NCBI GenBank assembly: GCA_002869095.1
Contig: PKTO01000178.1
Coordinates: forward strand, 1-7,427
DNA: 7,427 nt
Reading direction: 5' to 3'
DNA from: Clostridiales bacterium
GTDB lineage: Bacteria > Bacillota > Clostridia > Peptostreptococcales > BM714
Part shown: positions 1-5,246 of the stretch, in pieces
Position numbering within the stretch: position 1 is the stretch's first letter
Layout: each line of letters starts with the position of its first letter
Notes under the pieces: model-generated
The model's database searches: none
What the model saw: the letters and a program-made list of their open reading frames with translations, nothing else
What the model was told of the DNA's origin: nothing
Position numbers and translations under genes: made by a program

Positions 1-277
1 CCCCAACTTTGTAACCGGCTTCATAGGCCTTTTTCTTCTCAGCCTCGACCGCTTCTCCTGCCTCCTCAATTGCCCGGGAAATCATCTCCTTGCATTCGTT
101 TTCCGCTAGCCGAACCAATTCGTCTGCTCTATGCTTCGATTGGCGGATAAGTGATTCTGCCTGTACCGATGATGAAAATCCGATACCAGCAACCGGATTT
201 TCCCGAACCGGAATCTTGCGCGCTTCATCGCAGTCCCTTTGCTGGTAATCTTTATATATCCTATGCGATGATTGCAT
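1..277 (-). CDS. fliH: FliH, flagellar export ATPase regulator (partial: C-terminus beyond the window)
   Basis: The first 92 codons are readable from ATG at 277; the gene continues past base 1. FliH binds and restrains the export ATPase FliI at the base of the flagellar type III secretion system. Visible are a polar N-terminus (MQSSHRIYKDYQQ) and a long charged Ala/Glu/Lys-rich helix (about residues 45-85), ending in AYEAGYKVG. The last segment resembles the glycine-spaced YxxGYxxG repeats typical of FliH. The start overlaps the end of fliG by 17 bases, and a GAGGTG Shine-Dalgarno lies six bases upstream, which indicates translational coupling. Its place after fliF and fliG is the standard fliFGH order. 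The diagnostic C-terminal domain is not visible, so the name rests on the N-terminal helix, the glycine motif and synteny. Confidence 0.88.
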   Translation of the reverse strand, partial: MQSSHRIYKDYQQRDCDEARKIPVRENPVAGIGFSSSVQAESLIRQSKHRADELVRLAENECKEMISRAIEEAGEAVEAEKKKAYEAGYKVG

Positions 278-1289
278 CCTCTCCACCTCTATTCAAGAAT
301 ATTTCTCCTGCCTCATCCAGCCTTCTTATGATGCCGACAATTTTCTGCTGAGCTTCTTCAACAGCCACCAGTCGCACCGGCCCCATGAATTCGATGTCGT
401 CTTTCAGTGTCTCTGCGGCGCGCTTTGAAATATTTTTATATATTATTTCCGCAACATCTTGGGACGCACCCTTTACGGCAAGAGCAAGATCCCCATTGTC
501 AACGTCCCGCAGAACCCTTTGAACAGAATTATTGTCAAGGCTTATGATGTCCTCGAAAATGAACATGCTGTCCTTTATTTCCTCCGCCAACTCAGGATTT
601 TCCAAAGCCATATTCTCTACGATGTTTTTCTCGGTAGACCTGTTTACCGCATTAAGAATGTCCACAAGCGTCCTTACTCCTCCATAAGACTCGAAGTTAT
701 TGTCCACAACATTCGAAAGTTTTCCGTCAAGTATCTTTTCCACCTGCTTTATCACCGCCGGAGATGTCTTGTTCATTGTAGCAATTCTATAAGCGACATC
801 CGTCTTGATGTCTTCCGGAAGTTCGGATAAGATTTGAGCCGATTTTTCGGGCTGCAAAAAGCAGAGAATCAACGCGATGGTCTGAGGGTGTTCATGCTCT
901 ATCGTTTTCAAAAGTTGTAACGGATCGGTCCGTCTTGCAATGGAAAAAGGCTTTTTTTTCAATGCAAGTCGACTAGAATTCTCGATTATTGACAACGCTC
1001 TCTGGCTTCCAAGAGCACGCGTCAGTATGTCGCGGGCATATTCGATCCCGCCCTGCCTTATGTATTCTCTCGCCTTGTTCATTTCAATAAATTCAGTGAG
1101 TATTCCATCCCGCACAGCCGGTTCTACTGTCGTGATGTTCGCTATCTCGTATGTGATTTTTTCAATCATCGGCTCCGGCAACATCTTCAACACCTTGGAT
1201 GACTTTTCCGTTCCTAGGGAAATGAACAGCACGGCGGCTTTTTCCACACCAGACAATTCATTTATCTTATTATGCGTTTTCATCGACAT
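261..1289 (-). CDS. fliG: FliG, flagellar motor switch protein
   Basis: FliG is the rotor protein of the cytoplasmic C-ring. It docks on FliF and transmits torque from the MotA stator. From ATG 1289 it has 342 residues, normal for the family. The N-terminal domain (about 10-100) carries EKAAVLFISLG and GGIEYARDIL. The middle domain starts with the EHPQ motif (about 133-136) followed by TIALILCFLQPEKSA. The C-terminal domain carries the torque-helix pattern VQRVLRDVDNGDLALAVKGA and then ISKRAAETLKDD and GPVRLVAVEEAQQKIV. The longest frame begins at GTG 1292, but ATG 1289 overlaps the fliF stop as TGATG and has AAGGA nine bases upstream. ATG 1283 is also possible. The overlap with fliF implies translational coupling, which suits the near-equal stoichiometry of MS ring and switch. 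No key region appears to be missing. Confidence 0.97.
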   Translation of the reverse strand: MSMKTHNKINELSGVEKAAVLFISLGTEKSSKVLKMLPEPMIEKITYEIANITTVEPAVRDGILTEFIEMNKAREYIRQGGIEYARDILTRALGSQRALSIIENSSRLALKKKPFSIARRTDPLQLLKTIEHEHPQTIALILCFLQPEKSAQILSELPEDIKTDVAYRIATMNKTSPAVIKQVEKILDGKLSNVVDNNFESYGGVRTLVDILNAVNRSTEKNIVENMALENPELAEEIKDSMFIFEDIISLDNNSVQRVLRDVDNGDLALAVKGASQDVAEIIYKNISKRAAETLKDDIEFMGPVRLVAVEEAQQKIVGIIRRLDEAGEIFLNRGGEDAIIA

Positions 1290-2875
1290 CACACCTCATC
1301 CTTCAGAACCCAAGTCTTCACCAATTCAGCCAGTTTTTCGGGATGCTCATCTGCGTATTCCTTGACACTTCTTTCAATTTCCGGGTCATCCATGGGTTCA
1401 AGCCTTAATGTAGCATCCTCTATCACATCCTCAATGGGCAGTGGATTCTGTATGTTCATATCAAGTTGCTCTCTGAAGTTTTCCCGTTTGCCACTTCTTT
1501 TAGCGATTAAGATAGCCGCAACCATTAGGATCAGCAACACGAAACCGCCCGCTATCCCTCCATAGAGCATCATCTTCTGCCGACTCTCCGTATTCTGGAT
1601 AAAAACAGTTTCCTGTTCCTGCATCTCCTTTATCAATTGATTCTGGTATGTCTTATCGAAAGGCAGCCCCTCCACGCTTATTATATCGCCTCTGGTCTGG
1701 TCATAACCAATAGCTGCCATAACTATATTGTTTATCGCCGATTTTTGGGCATCGTTAAGCGTTCCGTCATAAATAACAGATGCTGAAATCCTCCTGACTT
1801 CGCCGGGAGCTTTAATCCTATAAGTTCGCGTTTCACCAATTTCATAGTTTCTGACAGTCTCATAGTTGCTTATGCTTTCATCATCCGCAACAGTCTCCGG
1901 ATTGACTATTCCGTACTCGAGATTGTTGTCGATTGGACTATAGCTTTCGTCGCTCTCAGCTCCTTCGGATCTCGTCAAATGGTCCTGTTGGCTTCTTACA
2001 ATTTTTTCGTCGTCATACTCGACAATAGTTGTTTCTTCCGAGTCAAAATCCATGTCCGCATTGACTTTGACTGCAACCTTGTCAACACCAAACGCCTGCT
2101 CAAGCATTGTCTTGAGCCCATTCTCAATATTTCTCTCGAATTCGTCCTCCATGCTCATGCGATTGTCTGCAAATACTGTTGCAGGCATCTCGGCTTCTTC
2201 CATGAATATTCCTGCGCTAAGCAAGTTGGCATTCGAATCCACGACCCGTACGTTTCCCTCCGGTATGTCCCTCAAAGCTCCCGAAACCAGTGAAATGATC
2301 CCCTTTATTTGTTGTGGCCCCAGATTCTCTAGCGGATTGATTTTGATTACAACCGTAGCGTTGCCCGCCTTCGCCTCACGCGTGAATACAGATTCCTGGG
2401 AAAGCGCAAGGTGAACCCTTGCGTATTCCACTTCCTCAAGAGACATTATCGAACGCGCCAATTCCCCTTCTAACGCTCTTTGATACATTATTTTACGGTC
2501 TTCGTCGGTCACAGCGAACCCCGCATCATCAAAAATCTCAAAACCCTTGCCGCTGTTAGGCAAAAGTCCATCCATTGCAAGATCAAGCCTCAGACGATCA
2601 ACCTTTCCATCCGGAACCATAATCGTCGCGCCTTCATCCGTAATCCTGTAATCGCTTATCTTCAATTCATCCATCTTCTTCACAATATTTGCCGAATCTT
2701 TCATGTCCAAACCCGAAAAAACCGGCACATAGACAGTCCGGCCAAAAAAAGCATAATAAGCAACCACTGCAATTAGGAACAACAAAAATATTACAACTAT
2801 TCCTACGCGCTTGCTCTTTTCCATTTTATTCCATACGCCGCCAAATCTGTCTGCCGCTATTTTTGCTTTACCCAT
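1289..2875 (-). CDS. fliF: FliF, flagellar MS-ring protein
   Basis: FliF forms the membrane MS ring on which the rotor, rod and export gate are built. Numbered from ATG 2875, a short basic N-terminus is followed by transmembrane segment 1 (about 24-45, VGIVVIFLLFLIAVV). The large extracytoplasmic ring-building region follows, with an acidic, low-complexity stretch in its second half. Transmembrane segment 2 is at about 437-458, and the cytoplasmic tail ends DEHPEKLAELVKTWVLKDEV, the FliG-binding motif. Length is 528 residues, normal for the family. The longest frame starts at ATG 2902 with nothing resembling a Shine-Dalgarno before it. GGGGGAG at 2885-2891 sits nine bases from ATG 2875, so I prefer that start. 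Upstream is a c-di-GMP riboswitch with a terminator, so the gene is probably controlled by transcription read-through. Downstream it overlaps fliG. Confidence 0.96.
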   Translation of the reverse strand: MGKAKIAADRFGGVWNKMEKSKRVGIVVIFLLFLIAVVAYYAFFGRTVYVPVFSGLDMKDSANIVKKMDELKISDYRITDEGATIMVPDGKVDRLRLDLAMDGLLPNSGKGFEIFDDAGFAVTDEDRKIMYQRALEGELARSIMSLEEVEYARVHLALSQESVFTREAKAGNATVVIKINPLENLGPQQIKGIISLVSGALRDIPEGNVRVVDSNANLLSAGIFMEEAEMPATVFADNRMSMEDEFERNIENGLKTMLEQAFGVDKVAVKVNADMDFDSEETTIVEYDDEKIVRSQQDHLTRSEGAESDESYSPIDNNLEYGIVNPETVADDESISNYETVRNYEIGETRTYRIKAPGEVRRISASVIYDGTLNDAQKSAINNIVMAAIGYDQTRGDIISVEGLPFDKTYQNQLIKEMQEQETVFIQNTESRQKMMLYGGIAGGFVLLILMVAAILIAKRSGKRENFREQLDMNIQNPLPIEDVIEDATLRLEPMDDPEIERSVKEYADEHPEKLAELVKTWVLKDEV

Positions 2876-2884
2876 TGAAACCGG

Positions 2885-2891
2885 CTCCCCC
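2885..2891 (-). promoter_or_regulatory. Ribosome-binding site deciding the fliF start
   Basis: The minus strand reads GGGGGAG here, with a nine-base spacer to ATG at 2875. The upstream in-frame ATG codons at 2902 and 2896 have only AT-rich sequence or no usable spacing before them. This site therefore argues for the internal start. Confidence 0.7.
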
Positions 2892-2935
2892 GCCATGCTC
2901 ATAATATATCTATGTAATTTGTTTTAAAAACATAC

Positions 2936-2959
2936 AAAAAAACCCTGTTGAAAAGGGCT
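2936..2959 (-). terminator. Intrinsic terminator of the riboswitch expression platform
   Basis: On the minus strand AGCCCU (2959-2954) can pair with AGGGUU (2946-2941) around the seven-base loop UUUCAAC, with one G-U pair. A run of seven U residues spans 2942-2936. The stem can extend outward with weaker G-U pairs into the U-run. The stem is short, so efficiency is uncertain. Its position, 13 bases after the aptamer and 61 bases before the preferred fliF start, is what a transcription-terminating riboswitch needs. Confidence 0.7.
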
Positions 2960-2976
2960 CCCAAATCCATCAGGTT
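2941..2976 (-). promoter_or_regulatory. Possible antiterminator pairing competing with the terminator
   Basis: AACCUG (2976-2971) can pair with CAGGGUU (2947-2941) with one bulged G. The first four of those bases (AACC, 2976-2973) also form the 3' strand of aptamer helix P1. The second segment contains the 3' arm of the terminator stem. The two structures are therefore mutually exclusive. This is found by eye and has not been tested by folding. Confidence 0.45.
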
Positions 2977-3057
2977 GAAACCCGGCCGTCTTTCCCTTTC
3001 GGCTTAAGACCCGTCGGCTTTGCGTCCCAGCCTTTCAACTGGTTTGCCCTTTAAACC
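2973..3057 (-). promoter_or_regulatory. Cyclic-di-GMP class I (GEMM-I) riboswitch aptamer
   Basis: The minus strand contains the two hallmark blocks of the class, GGGCAAACC (3049-3041) and GGGACGCAAAGCC (3028-3016). Both match the Vibrio cholerae Vc2 aptamer as I recall it. Between them CCAGUU and GGCUGG form a helix closed by a GAAA tetraloop (3036-3033). A second arm uses GUCUU (3010-3006) with AAGAC (2992-2988) and carries another GAAA loop on a CC/GG step. The 3' side reads GGCCGGGUUUC, matching the ligand-contacting segment. P1 is GGUUUAAA (3057-3050) with UUUCAACC (2980-2973), seven of eight pairs. By alignment, the residues equivalent to Vc2 G20, A47 and C92 fall near 3048, 3021 and 2984 and are all present. 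The G at the position-20 equivalent favours c-di-GMP over cGAMP. The aptamer lies between fliE and fliF, in the sense orientation. Confidence 0.95.
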
Positions 3058-3058
3058 A

Positions 3059-3346
3059 CTATATTTGCATTTTCATTATTTCCTGATAAGCCTCCACTAC
3101 CTTGTTTCTGATCTGGACCGTCATTTCAAGAGCTAATTTTGCCTCCTCCGTTTTTATCATGACTTCGTGAATGTTGTCCAAATCTCCAAGCGCCAAAGCT
3201 TCGGACGCTTTTTCCGATTGTATCTGAAGCTCGTTTACGTCTTCAAGCTGCTTCTTCATCGTATCCGAAAATGACAGCGTTTTGTTTGAATTTACGGTTT
3301 TCCCATTTGCATAGCCAATATCACCCGATACCGATTCTACCCTCAA
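3059..3346 (-). CDS. fliE: FliE, hook-basal body junction protein
   Basis: FliE is the small export substrate that joins the MS ring and export gate to the proximal rod. The product has 95 residues, typical for the family. The N-terminus is variable. The conserved C-terminal half contains GDLDNIHEVMIKTEEAKLAL followed by EMTVQIRNKVVEAYQEIMKM. The start is TTG at 3346, preceded by GGGGGAG with a five-base spacer. The next in-frame ATG is codon 30 and would remove about a third of the protein, so the TTG start is preferred. It follows flgC by 19 bases. The stop codon TAG (3061-3059) lies only two bases before P1 of the c-di-GMP aptamer, so ribosomes ending here would cover part of the riboswitch. 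No convincing internal promoter is visible, so it is presumably transcribed with flgB and flgC. Confidence 0.95.
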   Translation of the reverse strand: MRVESVSGDIGYANGKTVNSNKTLSFSDTMKKQLEDVNELQIQSEKASEALALGDLDNIHEVMIKTEEAKLALEMTVQIRNKVVEAYQEIMKMQI

Positions 3347-3365
3347 TCAATCTCCCCCTCAATCA

Positions 3366-3791
3366 TCATTTGCCAATTTCAAGGGCTTTTGCATACATTC
3401 CCTTGCTCGAATTAATAACCGTGACGTTTGCCTCGTAGGCCCTTGTGGCCGCTATCATGTCCACCATCTCATTCAGAAGATTCACATTCGGAAGTTCGAC
3501 GTATCCGTCACCGTCGGCGTCCGGATGCCCCGGATCGTATACCTTCTTGAACGGACTATCGTCCTCCTGGATTCCTACCGCCTCGACTCCGCTTGTTTTC
3601 ACTCCAAACGAGCCTCTCTGCATCTCATTCTCAAGCCTTTCCCGAAAAACAGCCACTTTTCTTCTGTACGGACCGCCATCCTCAGTACGAGTCGTATTGG
3701 CATTGGCGACATTTGAAGCTATTGTGTCCATGCGTAAACGCTCAGCTGAAAGACCGCTGGCGCTTATCGAAAGAGTGTCAAAGATTTTCAT
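3366..3791 (-). CDS. flgC: FlgC, flagellar basal-body proximal rod protein
   Basis: FlgC is a subunit of the proximal rod, secreted through the flagellar export gate. It has 141 residues, normal length. The N-terminal rod motif is clear at about 12-33 ([20 protein letters not shown]). The family motif [19 protein letters not shown] is at about 86-104, followed by the C-terminal helix containing [17 protein letters not shown], the heptad segment that packs in the rod. ATG 3791 is two bases after the flgB stop. The Shine-Dalgarno (GAAGGG) lies inside the end of flgB at rather long spacing, so coupling to flgB translation is likely. No anomalies are seen. Confidence 0.97.
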
Positions 3792-3793
3792 GC

Positions 3794-4210
3794 CTATCGC
3801 CGCCCTTCATTGATGACATATCTCAAAACAGAAATCTTATTGGACACCTGTTGCGCCAAAGCATTGTATAAAAGCTGATTGGCGGCCATGTCAACCATTT
3901 CCGAATCTATGTCAACATTATTGCCGTCAAGCCTCTGTGAAAATGATTCATCCCTTACTATTTCAGGCTTGACCGAAGTCCACTCCATATCTCCTCCAAT
4001 ATGGAATTCGTTGGTCTTTTTCAAGGCCATATCCTCGGACATGCCTACGGCAGACTTCATGGCCTCCTCAAACGCCACTCTTTCAGCCTTGTATCCCTTG
4101 GTATTGACATTGGCTATGTTGTTTGCAGTCGCCTTATGCCTCAGCAATGCAGCGTCCATAGCTTTTTTCAATATTCCAACATCAATGGCTCCGGTTACCA
4201 TCTTGCTCAT
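3794..4210 (-). CDS. flgB: FlgB, flagellar basal-body proximal rod protein
   Basis: FlgB is the rod subunit next to FliE at the base of the axial structure. From ATG 4210 it has 138 residues, typical for FlgB. The N-terminal rod motif [19 protein letters not shown] is at about 24-42. The C-terminal rod helix is [20 protein letters not shown]. The frame is open to an ATG at 4243, but that codon coincides with the expected transcription start of the promoter just upstream. ATG 4210 has GGGGGGAAG seven bases before it, so the shorter form is preferred. It is first in the flgB-flgC-fliE unit. It can be transcribed from its own promoter and possibly by read-through from the chaperone genes. Confidence 0.96.
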
Positions 4211-4217
4211 ATCGACA

Positions 4218-4226
4218 CTTCCCCCC
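4218..4226 (-). promoter_or_regulatory. Ribosome-binding site deciding the flgB start
   Basis: The minus strand reads GGGGGGAAG with a seven-base spacer to ATG 4210. Together with the promoter, whose start point falls near 4242, it gives a leader of roughly 30 bases. It argues against the longer frame from 4243. Confidence 0.7.
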
Positions 4227-4248
4227 GAATAATTACTTTGCATTTTAA

Positions 4249-4277
4249 ATTCTAAACACTATAATTGGAAAAATCAA
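4249..4277 (-). promoter_or_regulatory. Sigma-A-type promoter for flgB-flgC-fliE (and onward)
   Basis: The -35 box is TTGATT (4277-4272) and the -10 box is TAGAAT (4254-4249), with an exact 17-base spacer that is AT-rich. Each box differs from the consensus at one or two positions. The predicted start is near 4242, before the flgB ribosome-binding site. I found no TAAA-N15-GCCGATAA-type sigma-D/sigma-28 match in this gap. Confidence 0.65.
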
Positions 4278-4288
4278 GCTCTTTTTCC
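4267..4288. repeat. Inverted repeat overlapping the flgB -35 box
   Basis: GGAAAAA and TTTTTCC form a perfect 7-bp inverted repeat around an eight-base loop. The repeat covers the whole -35 box of the flgB promoter. It could be an operator, or a weak 3' hairpin for the upstream chaperone transcript, since the minus-strand arm ends in TTTTT before CC. Neither role is established. Confidence 0.45.
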
Positions 4289-4346
4289 AGCCGCCAGCTT
4301 TTTCGCGTTCGAAACCGGTCTGTCTTGTCACCATTAACTTCGGCAA

Positions 4347-4374
4347 TTTCAATATGCAAGGCAAAATATTGAAA
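4347..4374. repeat. AT-rich inverted repeat in the chaperone/flgB gap
   Basis: TTTCAATAT (4347-4355) and ATATTGAAA (4366-4374) form a perfect 9-bp inverted repeat with a ten-base spacer. It lies 18 bases after the stop of the FliT/FlgN-like gene. No T-run follows on the minus strand, so it is not a standard terminator. It might be a protein-binding site or an RNA 3'-end stabiliser. The rest of the 148-bp gap holds only this, the second inverted repeat and the promoter. Confidence 0.5.
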
Positions 4375-4391
4375 CTATAAAAATTTTTAAC

Positions 4392-4868
4392 TCATTTGGA
4401 TTTCCGATCTATGAAACATGCATTTCTGCACCTGTCATAATAGCCTTTGATGCTGATTTTTCCTTTGCTTGTCTCTTTCAGTTTTGAACCGATTTCCACT
4501 TTTTCCGCGCTTAGGGCGTCAATTACGCCTGCATGCCTTTCCATCAAAGTTTCGAGCGAATCCTTTAAATTCGATACTGCCTCATCGAAAGATTTTAGCA
4601 AATCTCCCCTCACGCACCCTTCTATCGACATCCTGTCGAACATCTCCAATCCCAGGGTTTTCGACAGGTGCTCCTCCATAACCCGTCGCTCGTCCGATAA
4701 AACACCTATTGCATCGATTGTATCTTGGCTGCTCTTGAGAATATCCATCATTTCATCAGATGTTTTATCCGCCTTTTCCCTAACCGCTTCAATGACTGAT
4801 TTCAAAGATTTGTACAAATTCGTCTGTCTGTTCAGATTCTCAATCAAAATCTCAAACTGCAACACCAC
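4392..4868 (-). CDS. FliT/FlgN-like flagellar export chaperone candidate
   Basis: I do not recognise this 158-residue protein by a signature motif. It looks almost wholly helical, with heptad-like hydrophobic spacing (about 5-70 and 90-135), no signal peptide and no membrane segment, like the FlgN and FliT export chaperones. It directly follows fliS with a 12-base gap, the position fliT occupies in Bacillus fliD-fliS-fliT. The C-terminus KGYYDRCRNACFIDRKSK is unusual: basic and aromatic, with two cysteines four residues apart. The start is GTG at 4868 (or the adjacent GTG at 4865), with GGGAGGG upstream. A role in keeping FliD or the hook-filament junction proteins FlgK/FlgL soluble before export is an inference from position and predicted structure. 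Another helical flagellar accessory protein is possible. Confidence 0.6.
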   Translation of the reverse strand: MVLQFEILIENLNRQTNLYKSLKSVIEAVREKADKTSDEMMDILKSSQDTIDAIGVLSDERRVMEEHLSKTLGLEMFDRMSIEGCVRGDLLKSFDEAVSNLKDSLETLMERHAGVIDALSAEKVEIGSKLKETSKGKISIKGYYDRCRNACFIDRKSK

Positions 4869-4880
4869 TAATCCCTCCCG

Positions 4881-5246
4881 TCAAGAAATGGCAACCCAAG
4901 CTTCCCTAAGTTCCTCTAGGAAGCCTCTAACTTCCTGCACCTTCTCCTCATCCATGCGTATGTTAGCCTCAACGAGCTCACGTGTCATGAAGGCGTACAA
5001 AGCGGCTAGCCTTTCGGCTGTCTCTCCAGCCTCGAAATTGAGGGACGCCGCAAGCTCGGCCAATATGTCCTGCGCGCGCTTAAGGTACTCGTTTTTCTTC
5101 TCAATATTTTTTTCACGAATAGCAACCTCCGCGAGTCGGCAGAAGCGTATAACCCCATCATAAAGCATTATCAGCAGCTTCTTTAGCGATGCAGTAGTTA
5201 CATTGTTTGTTTCGTAAATGTTGTATGCGTTGGAATTGTTGTACAT
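4881..5246 (-). CDS. fliS: FliS, flagellin export chaperone
   Basis: FliS binds the C-terminal disordered region of flagellin in the cytoplasm, prevents premature polymerisation and delivers it to the export gate. The 121-residue product has the family N-terminus AYNIYETNNVTTAS (about 7-20) followed by KKLLIMLYDGVIRFCRLAE. The remaining helices include KKNEYLKRAQDILAELAASL and the segment around ALYAFMTRELVEANI, matching the four-helix bundle and normal length. The upstream Shine-Dalgarno is a near-perfect AGGAGG that also overlaps the stop codon of the preceding gene. That suggests coupling and strong translation. The flagellin gene itself is not in the window. Confidence 0.96.
   Translation of the reverse strand: MYNNSNAYNIYETNNVTTASLKKLLIMLYDGVIRFCRLAEVAIREKNIEKKNEYLKRAQDILAELAASLNFEAGETAERLAALYAFMTRELVEANIRMDEEKVQEVRGFLEELREAWVAIS

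Follow-up and report, generated by a model that had tools for sequence, protein, structure and literature searches.

A c-di-GMP-I aptamer between fliE and fliF as a likely OFF switch within a clostridial flagellar gene cluster

Background

The pyr operon of Bacillus subtilis carries PyrR-controlled attenuators between its genes. Among c-di-GMP riboswitches, one of the closest described systems is Cd1 in the flgB leader of Clostridioides difficile, which is an OFF switch acting by termination; in the available part of the source, all seven functional class I switches of that organism are OFF switches (PMC6366702). Both the aptamer class and its association with flagellar operons are already known, and what differs at the locus described here is the position between fliE and fliF. 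A c-di-GMP riboswitch between these two genes was not found described in the literature searched, which covered few subscription papers and included the accessible parts of PMC6366702, PMC12452182, PMC9943018 and PMC13104608. The last of these, in the part available, turned out to describe a leader switch and not an internal one.

Results and discussion

A c-di-GMP-I aptamer directly behind fliE

The window, the whole stretch of 7,427 nucleotides analysed here, comes from a Clostridiales bacterium (contig PKTO01000178.1). Its main features are as follows.

2973..3058, minus strand: c-di-GMP-I aptamer (RF01051, 63.1 bits, full length), with compensatory changes across five junction sequences
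3059..3346, minus strand: fliE (PF02049, 1.6e-30), whose stop codon adjoins the aptamer
1289..2875, minus strand: fliF (PF01514 and PF08345), likely start 2875, with GGGGGAG at 2891-2885
261..1292, minus strand: fliG (PF01706, PF14842, PF14841), second of the genes that would come under the gate
3366..3791, minus strand: flgC (PF06429, PF00460), upstream of the switch
3794..4243, minus strand: flgB (PF00460), upstream of the switch; the true start may lie further in
4249..4277, minus strand: promoter-like TTGATT-17-TAGAAT, a consensus match only, just before flgB in a leader without aptamer

In the Rfam scan, the RF01051 (c-di-GMP-I) match covers 3058-2973 on the minus strand and model positions 1-87 of 87, with an E value of 6.4e-11. 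The score stands well above the gathering score of 35 bits, the check that the initial annotation had named for its proposed class I riboswitch, and RF01051 is the sole Rfam family above its gathering score in the window. The identification holds, with sharpened coordinates. The proposed range of 2903-3058 is the fliE-fliF gap itself, of which the aptamer takes the upstream 86 nt. The sense orientation between co-oriented genes is confirmed as well, since the aptamer, fliE and fliF all lie on the minus strand, as do all ten named genes of the window. The stop codon TAG of fliE occupies 3061-3059; therefore, the first base of the aptamer is the immediately following base. The related model RF03167 (c-di-GMP-I-GGC) reaches 53.2 bits on the window, below its cut-off of 59.

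The core letters GGCAAA, the GAAA loop and GACGCAAAG are all present in the window aptamer (alignment A1). The ligand-touching letters are taken by us to be G20, A47 and C92 in Vc2 numbering, and by mapping the window bears G, A and C at these places. By sequence, a candidate expression platform is also in place, as a terminator-like site (2960-2936) precedes the co-oriented fliF. The window's own genome contains 8 RF01051 matches, among which the 63.1 bits tie for the lowest score. No flagellar gene was seen around the other seven in the stretches read, and the frames downstream of them resemble exported proteins and a pilin, as judged by eye. At the position that presumably decides between c-di-GMP and cGAMP, the window carries G, and the aptamer of locus L008 (1501-1573) carries A, as do those of the order relatives L078, L080, L081, L084, L086 and L087.

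Genes on both sides of the aptamer

The minus-strand gene set of the window, assigned by Pfam, comprises flaG, fliD, a second flaG-like gene, fliS, a flgN-like gene (25.4 bits, under the Pfam cut-off of 30.5), flgB, flgC, fliE, fliF and fliG. By the open reading frame rule fliF starts at 2902; the start at 2875 is considered likely because the alignment of many homologs begins at residue 10 of the longer call and GGGGGAG precedes the ATG at 2875. The start of flgB (4243-4200) is probably at an inner ATG following GGGGGGAAG and not at the open reading frame call. An aptamer before flgB was found neither in the window nor in the corresponding loci of two relatives, L247 (genome G001, of the same genus) and L248 (genome G108).

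The contig of the window ends after fliG. On the same strand past fliF and fliG, the genome of the same-genus relative shows, by Pfam hits among the frames searched, a fliI-type ATPase, fliK, flgD, a flagellar_put gene and a flgE-type gene. The same run also holds motA, motB, fliL, fliO, fliP, fliR, flhB and flhA, and further an SRP54-type GTPase (flhF-like), a ParA-type ATPase, a PilZ gene of the YcgR kind and two flgF/flgG-type genes. If this gene order corresponds to a single transcript, the reach of a gate ahead of fliF would extend to the genes for switch, export, motor and hook. The placing of the motile/sessile decision at MS-ring synthesis, as initially proposed, is a reasonable inference, except that the gate may reach this much further. 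GGDEF domains were matched 12 times in the window's genome and 7 times in the same-genus genome.

Terminator and antiterminator in the fliE-fliF gap

Three further features lie within or just behind the aptamer.

2936..2960, minus strand: predicted intrinsic terminator, a hairpin at 2960-2940 with seven U at 2942-2936 (-6.7 kcal/mol)
3046..3052, minus strand: AAAGGGC on the aptamer 5' side, predicted antiterminator strand, pairing with 2958-2952 in the free ensemble
2952..2958, minus strand: GCCCUUU, 5' arm of the predicted terminator and, by folding, partner of the antiterminator strand

The terminator hairpin of the window has 7 pairs and lies 12 nt downstream of the aptamer. With a looser custom script, a hairpin running into six to eight U was seen at all five junctions known to carry the aptamer, 10-15 nt beyond it. 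A consensus terminator scan lists the window site, at 2 such sites in 2600-5000 vs 1.8 in shuffles; it lists none at the junctions of the same-genus locus L045 and of L009 and L010, two loci from metagenome-assembled genomes. The gating of fliF and the genes behind it, which was part of the initial proposal, is consistent with the terminator-like site between aptamer and fliF, and folding of the window adds a favoured direction, OFF.

AAAGGGC, positions 7-13 of the aptamer, is complementary at every base to GCCCUUU of the terminator 5' arm. In the same-genus relative the partners are AAAGGGC and GCCUUUU, forming seven pairs including one G-U. Before the terminator 3' arm is complete, this pairing reaches 0.95 of the free ensemble in the window and 0.82 in the same-genus relative. 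The mean pair probability of the window terminator is 0.006 in the free state vs 0.70 with the aptamer locked, and 0.01 vs 0.67 with slightly different locked letters, a contrast that is partly built in because the locked state lacks the antiterminator by construction. Pairing of the aptamer 5' region with the terminator arm was equalled in shuffle fractions of 0.027 (window) and 0.010 (same-genus relative), and pairing of the whole aptamer with that arm was no stronger than in shuffles (fractions of 0.28 and 0.11). Given these latter fractions and the relatedness of the two sequences, the antiterminator pairing is regarded as modest support. For the whole region of the window, the fold does not stand out (z -0.31). 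In the complete free fold of the window, the prevailing pairing is a second one, between GUUGAAAGG of P2 and the loop of the terminator; it is absent in the same-genus sequence (fraction 0.63) and was left out of the model for that reason.

Once complete, the terminator of the same-genus relative has a probability of 0.976 both free and locked in one calculation and of 0.97 in both states in a second, so that a switch there would need to act kinetically, during transcription. In L010 and L011 the terminator is formed in both states, and in L009 its probability is small throughout, at 0.094 free and 0.026 locked; folding thus leaves the direction undecided for these three loci. Ligand-dependent termination is supported by folding for the window only.

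Promoter-like sites were seen around the terminator. One at 2928-2901 in the window lies downstream of the terminator and could bypass the switch. At 1387-1416 of L045, a near-consensus CTGACA-18-TATAAT overlaps the linker and the terminator loop and may be a fliF promoter there or a chance match; the scan of the window shows no promoter-like match at the corresponding place.

Conservation of the junction aptamer

The initial annotation had suggested asking whether related genomes keep the insertion, and they do. The four nearest relatives seen, namely the same-genus genome G001 and three metagenome-assembled genomes (L009, L010 and L011), each have the aptamer between fliE and fliF. G001, the sole same-genus genome compared, is listed as 100% complete, and its single genome-wide RF01051 match (65.4 bits) is this junction. 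In the other three, FliF is 49-51% identical to that of the window. L010 (60.0 bits) and L011 (60.1 bits) are best matched by RF03167, and L009 is a near tie between RF01051 (51.5 bits) and RF03167 (51.3), the latter being preferred in one scan. All five junction aptamers were found by Rfam models alone, independently of the custom covariance model used in the survey below. L009 and G108 are taken as one contig, as both have 204,040 bases and the same aptamer score, which leaves five distinct junction cases.

The five FliF proteins form one clade with support of 99/98. The next clade consists of three family-f9 genomes, and the stretches read from them showed no aptamer at the junction or at the head. 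As all five cases fall in one clade, a single gain followed by retention is the simplest reading, of which the tree is no proof. Among the five sequences, in an alignment that was fitted to the model, 95.7% of the cells of aptamer pairs are paired vs 86.4% when shuffled, and both partners have changed in 8 of 20 pairs. The covariation score of 0.45 was reached by none of 500 shuffles and by no slid version, which supports the fold. In L009 a core C-G pair is replaced by U-A. Two stretches of the same locus, 3622-3838 and 2870-3334, are also notable: palindrome-like pieces (TGACCTA...TAGGTCA) stand between fliE and the aptamer, and the flgC-fliE gap is long as well.

Survey of the order and beyond

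The order-level sample comprised 297 genomes, 151 of which had a FliF match, and loci were read upstream of FliF among the matches listed. After G298 (match at the contig end), L200 and L220 (no fliE) and five re-fetched stretches were left out, 147 loci remained. A custom covariance model was trained on 30 aptamers, among them the five from the junctions. Gene starts were assigned by a simple rule; on that basis the median fliE-fliF gap among the matches listed is 24 nt, and 12 of the 147 loci have gaps of at least 100 nt. A junction aptamer occurs, among the matches listed, in 3 of the 147 loci: the window, G001 and G108. An aptamer before the first rod gene seen occurs in at least 17 (13 before flgB and 4 before flgC, again among the matches listed); this is a lower bound because only 81 loci have a flgB match preceded by more than 600 nt. 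In G054 the aptamer lies outside the locus, on the flgB side. A gap of at least 40 nt with a hairpin-U site at -5 kcal/mol or better was found in four loci among the matches listed, three of them aptamer-bearing. A set of 35 named loci found with FliF gave three junction aptamers (L009, L010 and L011). Same-order relatives outside the junction clade thus have the switch before the first rod gene or, in the stretches read, none.

In the loci L234, L238, L201 and L223 of family f11, a c-di-GMP-I aptamer precedes flgC, and by motif and by eye no flgB was seen in the space separating the two; in L223 only a non-flagellar-looking frame stands there. A sequence pattern consisting of a fliE-like stop and then the aptamer was matched in 3 of 391 genomes of the class and in 1 of 398 of the phylum (G000 in both), the pattern being strict and liable to miss variants such as L009. 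The third class match, G319, adjoins a long open frame, which we take to be a lysine 2,3-aminomutase by resemblance, and was rejected.

Other loci have an extended gap without the aptamer. No Rfam match at E 0.05 was found in those of L059, L062, L243, L214, L058, L046-L048, L056, L197 and L199. The gaps of L014-L017 and L042, relatives of Alkalibacter and Proteiniclasticum, measure 240-257 nt, and ACTGCTT and GCAGTTTT recur in four of these five. They also gave no Rfam match, and the shared sequence is a possible undescribed RNA element.

A likely OFF switch and its alternatives

Taken as a whole, the aptamer and the predicted terminator between fliE and fliF likely act as an OFF switch by termination. 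At low c-di-GMP, AAAGGGC on the aptamer 5' side would pair with GCCCUUU of the terminator 5' arm, and polymerase would continue into fliF. With c-di-GMP bound, AAAGGGC would be held in the binding core, the terminator arm would be freed, the hairpin would form and transcription would end after fliE. The direction was chosen from the fold of the window and from the behaviour of the C. difficile flagellar class I switch, as far as the available part of the source describes it (PMC6366702). Folding favours OFF in the window and, weakly, in the same-genus relative, and does not favour it in the three metagenome-assembled genomes.

A coupling to translation is a tentative extension of this proposal and, on present evidence, a rather doubtful one: the junction would read both c-di-GMP and fliE translation before committing to the MS ring and the export apparatus. 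In four of the five junctions the aptamer starts 0 to 8 nt past the fliE stop, so a ribosome ending fliE would cover the aptamer 5' strand, and in the two same-genus sequences this strand doubles as the predicted antiterminator strand.

An ordinary 5'-leader riboswitch, for which a promoter within fliE would start a separate fliF transcript and the cluster would be two operons, is unlikely. The window does have a weak promoter-like TTGAAG-18-TACAAT inside fliE (3246-3217, minus strand), but crude sigma-70 scans of L045, L009 and L010 show no sense-strand promoter-like site from the fliE start to the aptamer, and the median spacing of 24 nt elsewhere in the order suggests one transcript ancestrally. 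It is quite improbable that the main role of the element is to form the 3' terminus of a short flgB-flgC-fliE transcript and to fix the proportion of rod-gene mRNA to fliF-operon mRNA, with only a slight ligand response. The aptamer core is retained across about 50% FliF divergence with compensatory pair changes, which would be unexpected if only the terminator mattered, even though terminator-like GGCC hairpins with U runs stand in the fliE-fliF gap without an Rfam aptamer in two loci outside the junction clade (L012 3873-4028, L013 3879-4022). An ON switch, in which c-di-GMP would prevent termination and raise fliF expression, is slightly less probable still: the folding of the window indicates OFF, and the flagellar class I switch for which data exist is, in the accessible part of PMC6366702, of the OFF type, against which stand the existence of class I ON switches such as Bc2 of Bacillus thuringiensis (PMC6366702, same part) and the undecided direction in L009-L011. 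A decayed aptamer without function is hardly credible, as the full-length match, the conserved core letters and the aptamers at the same site in four relatives outweigh a score that ties for the lowest of eight in the genome.

Should the OFF switch operate as proposed, cells with high c-di-GMP would still transcribe the three rod genes flgB, flgC and fliE, and not fliF and the genes behind it for the MS ring, switch, export, motor and hook. This makes two ideas testable, namely that a second messenger splits the order of basal-body gene expression and that a riboswitch functions behind translated genes.

Comparison with known systems

What sets the element apart is the place of the aptamer between fliE and fliF, behind three translated genes, and its retention across a clade. 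As far as the available part of PMC6366702 describes it, the flagellar-operon c-di-GMP riboswitch with data sits at the operon head and shuts everything, whereas the gate described here is elsewhere and is kept across a clade. Cd1 (Cdi-1-3) shares with the window the aptamer class, the kind of gene cluster and a terminator after the aptamer, and OFF would be expected here by this likeness. Cd1 lies before flgB and gates the entire operon (PMC6366702, same part); in contrast, the window aptamer lies after fliE with none upstream of flgB, and thus does not share the location upstream of the first operon gene. RF03167 belongs to the same clan as RF01051. The junction aptamers of L010 and L011 match it best, unlike that of the window, which scores below its cut-off. 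The window element would resemble the PyrR attenuators in placing terminator-based control between genes of a single operon. There a protein binds the RNA, whereas in the window element a small molecule would bind directly.
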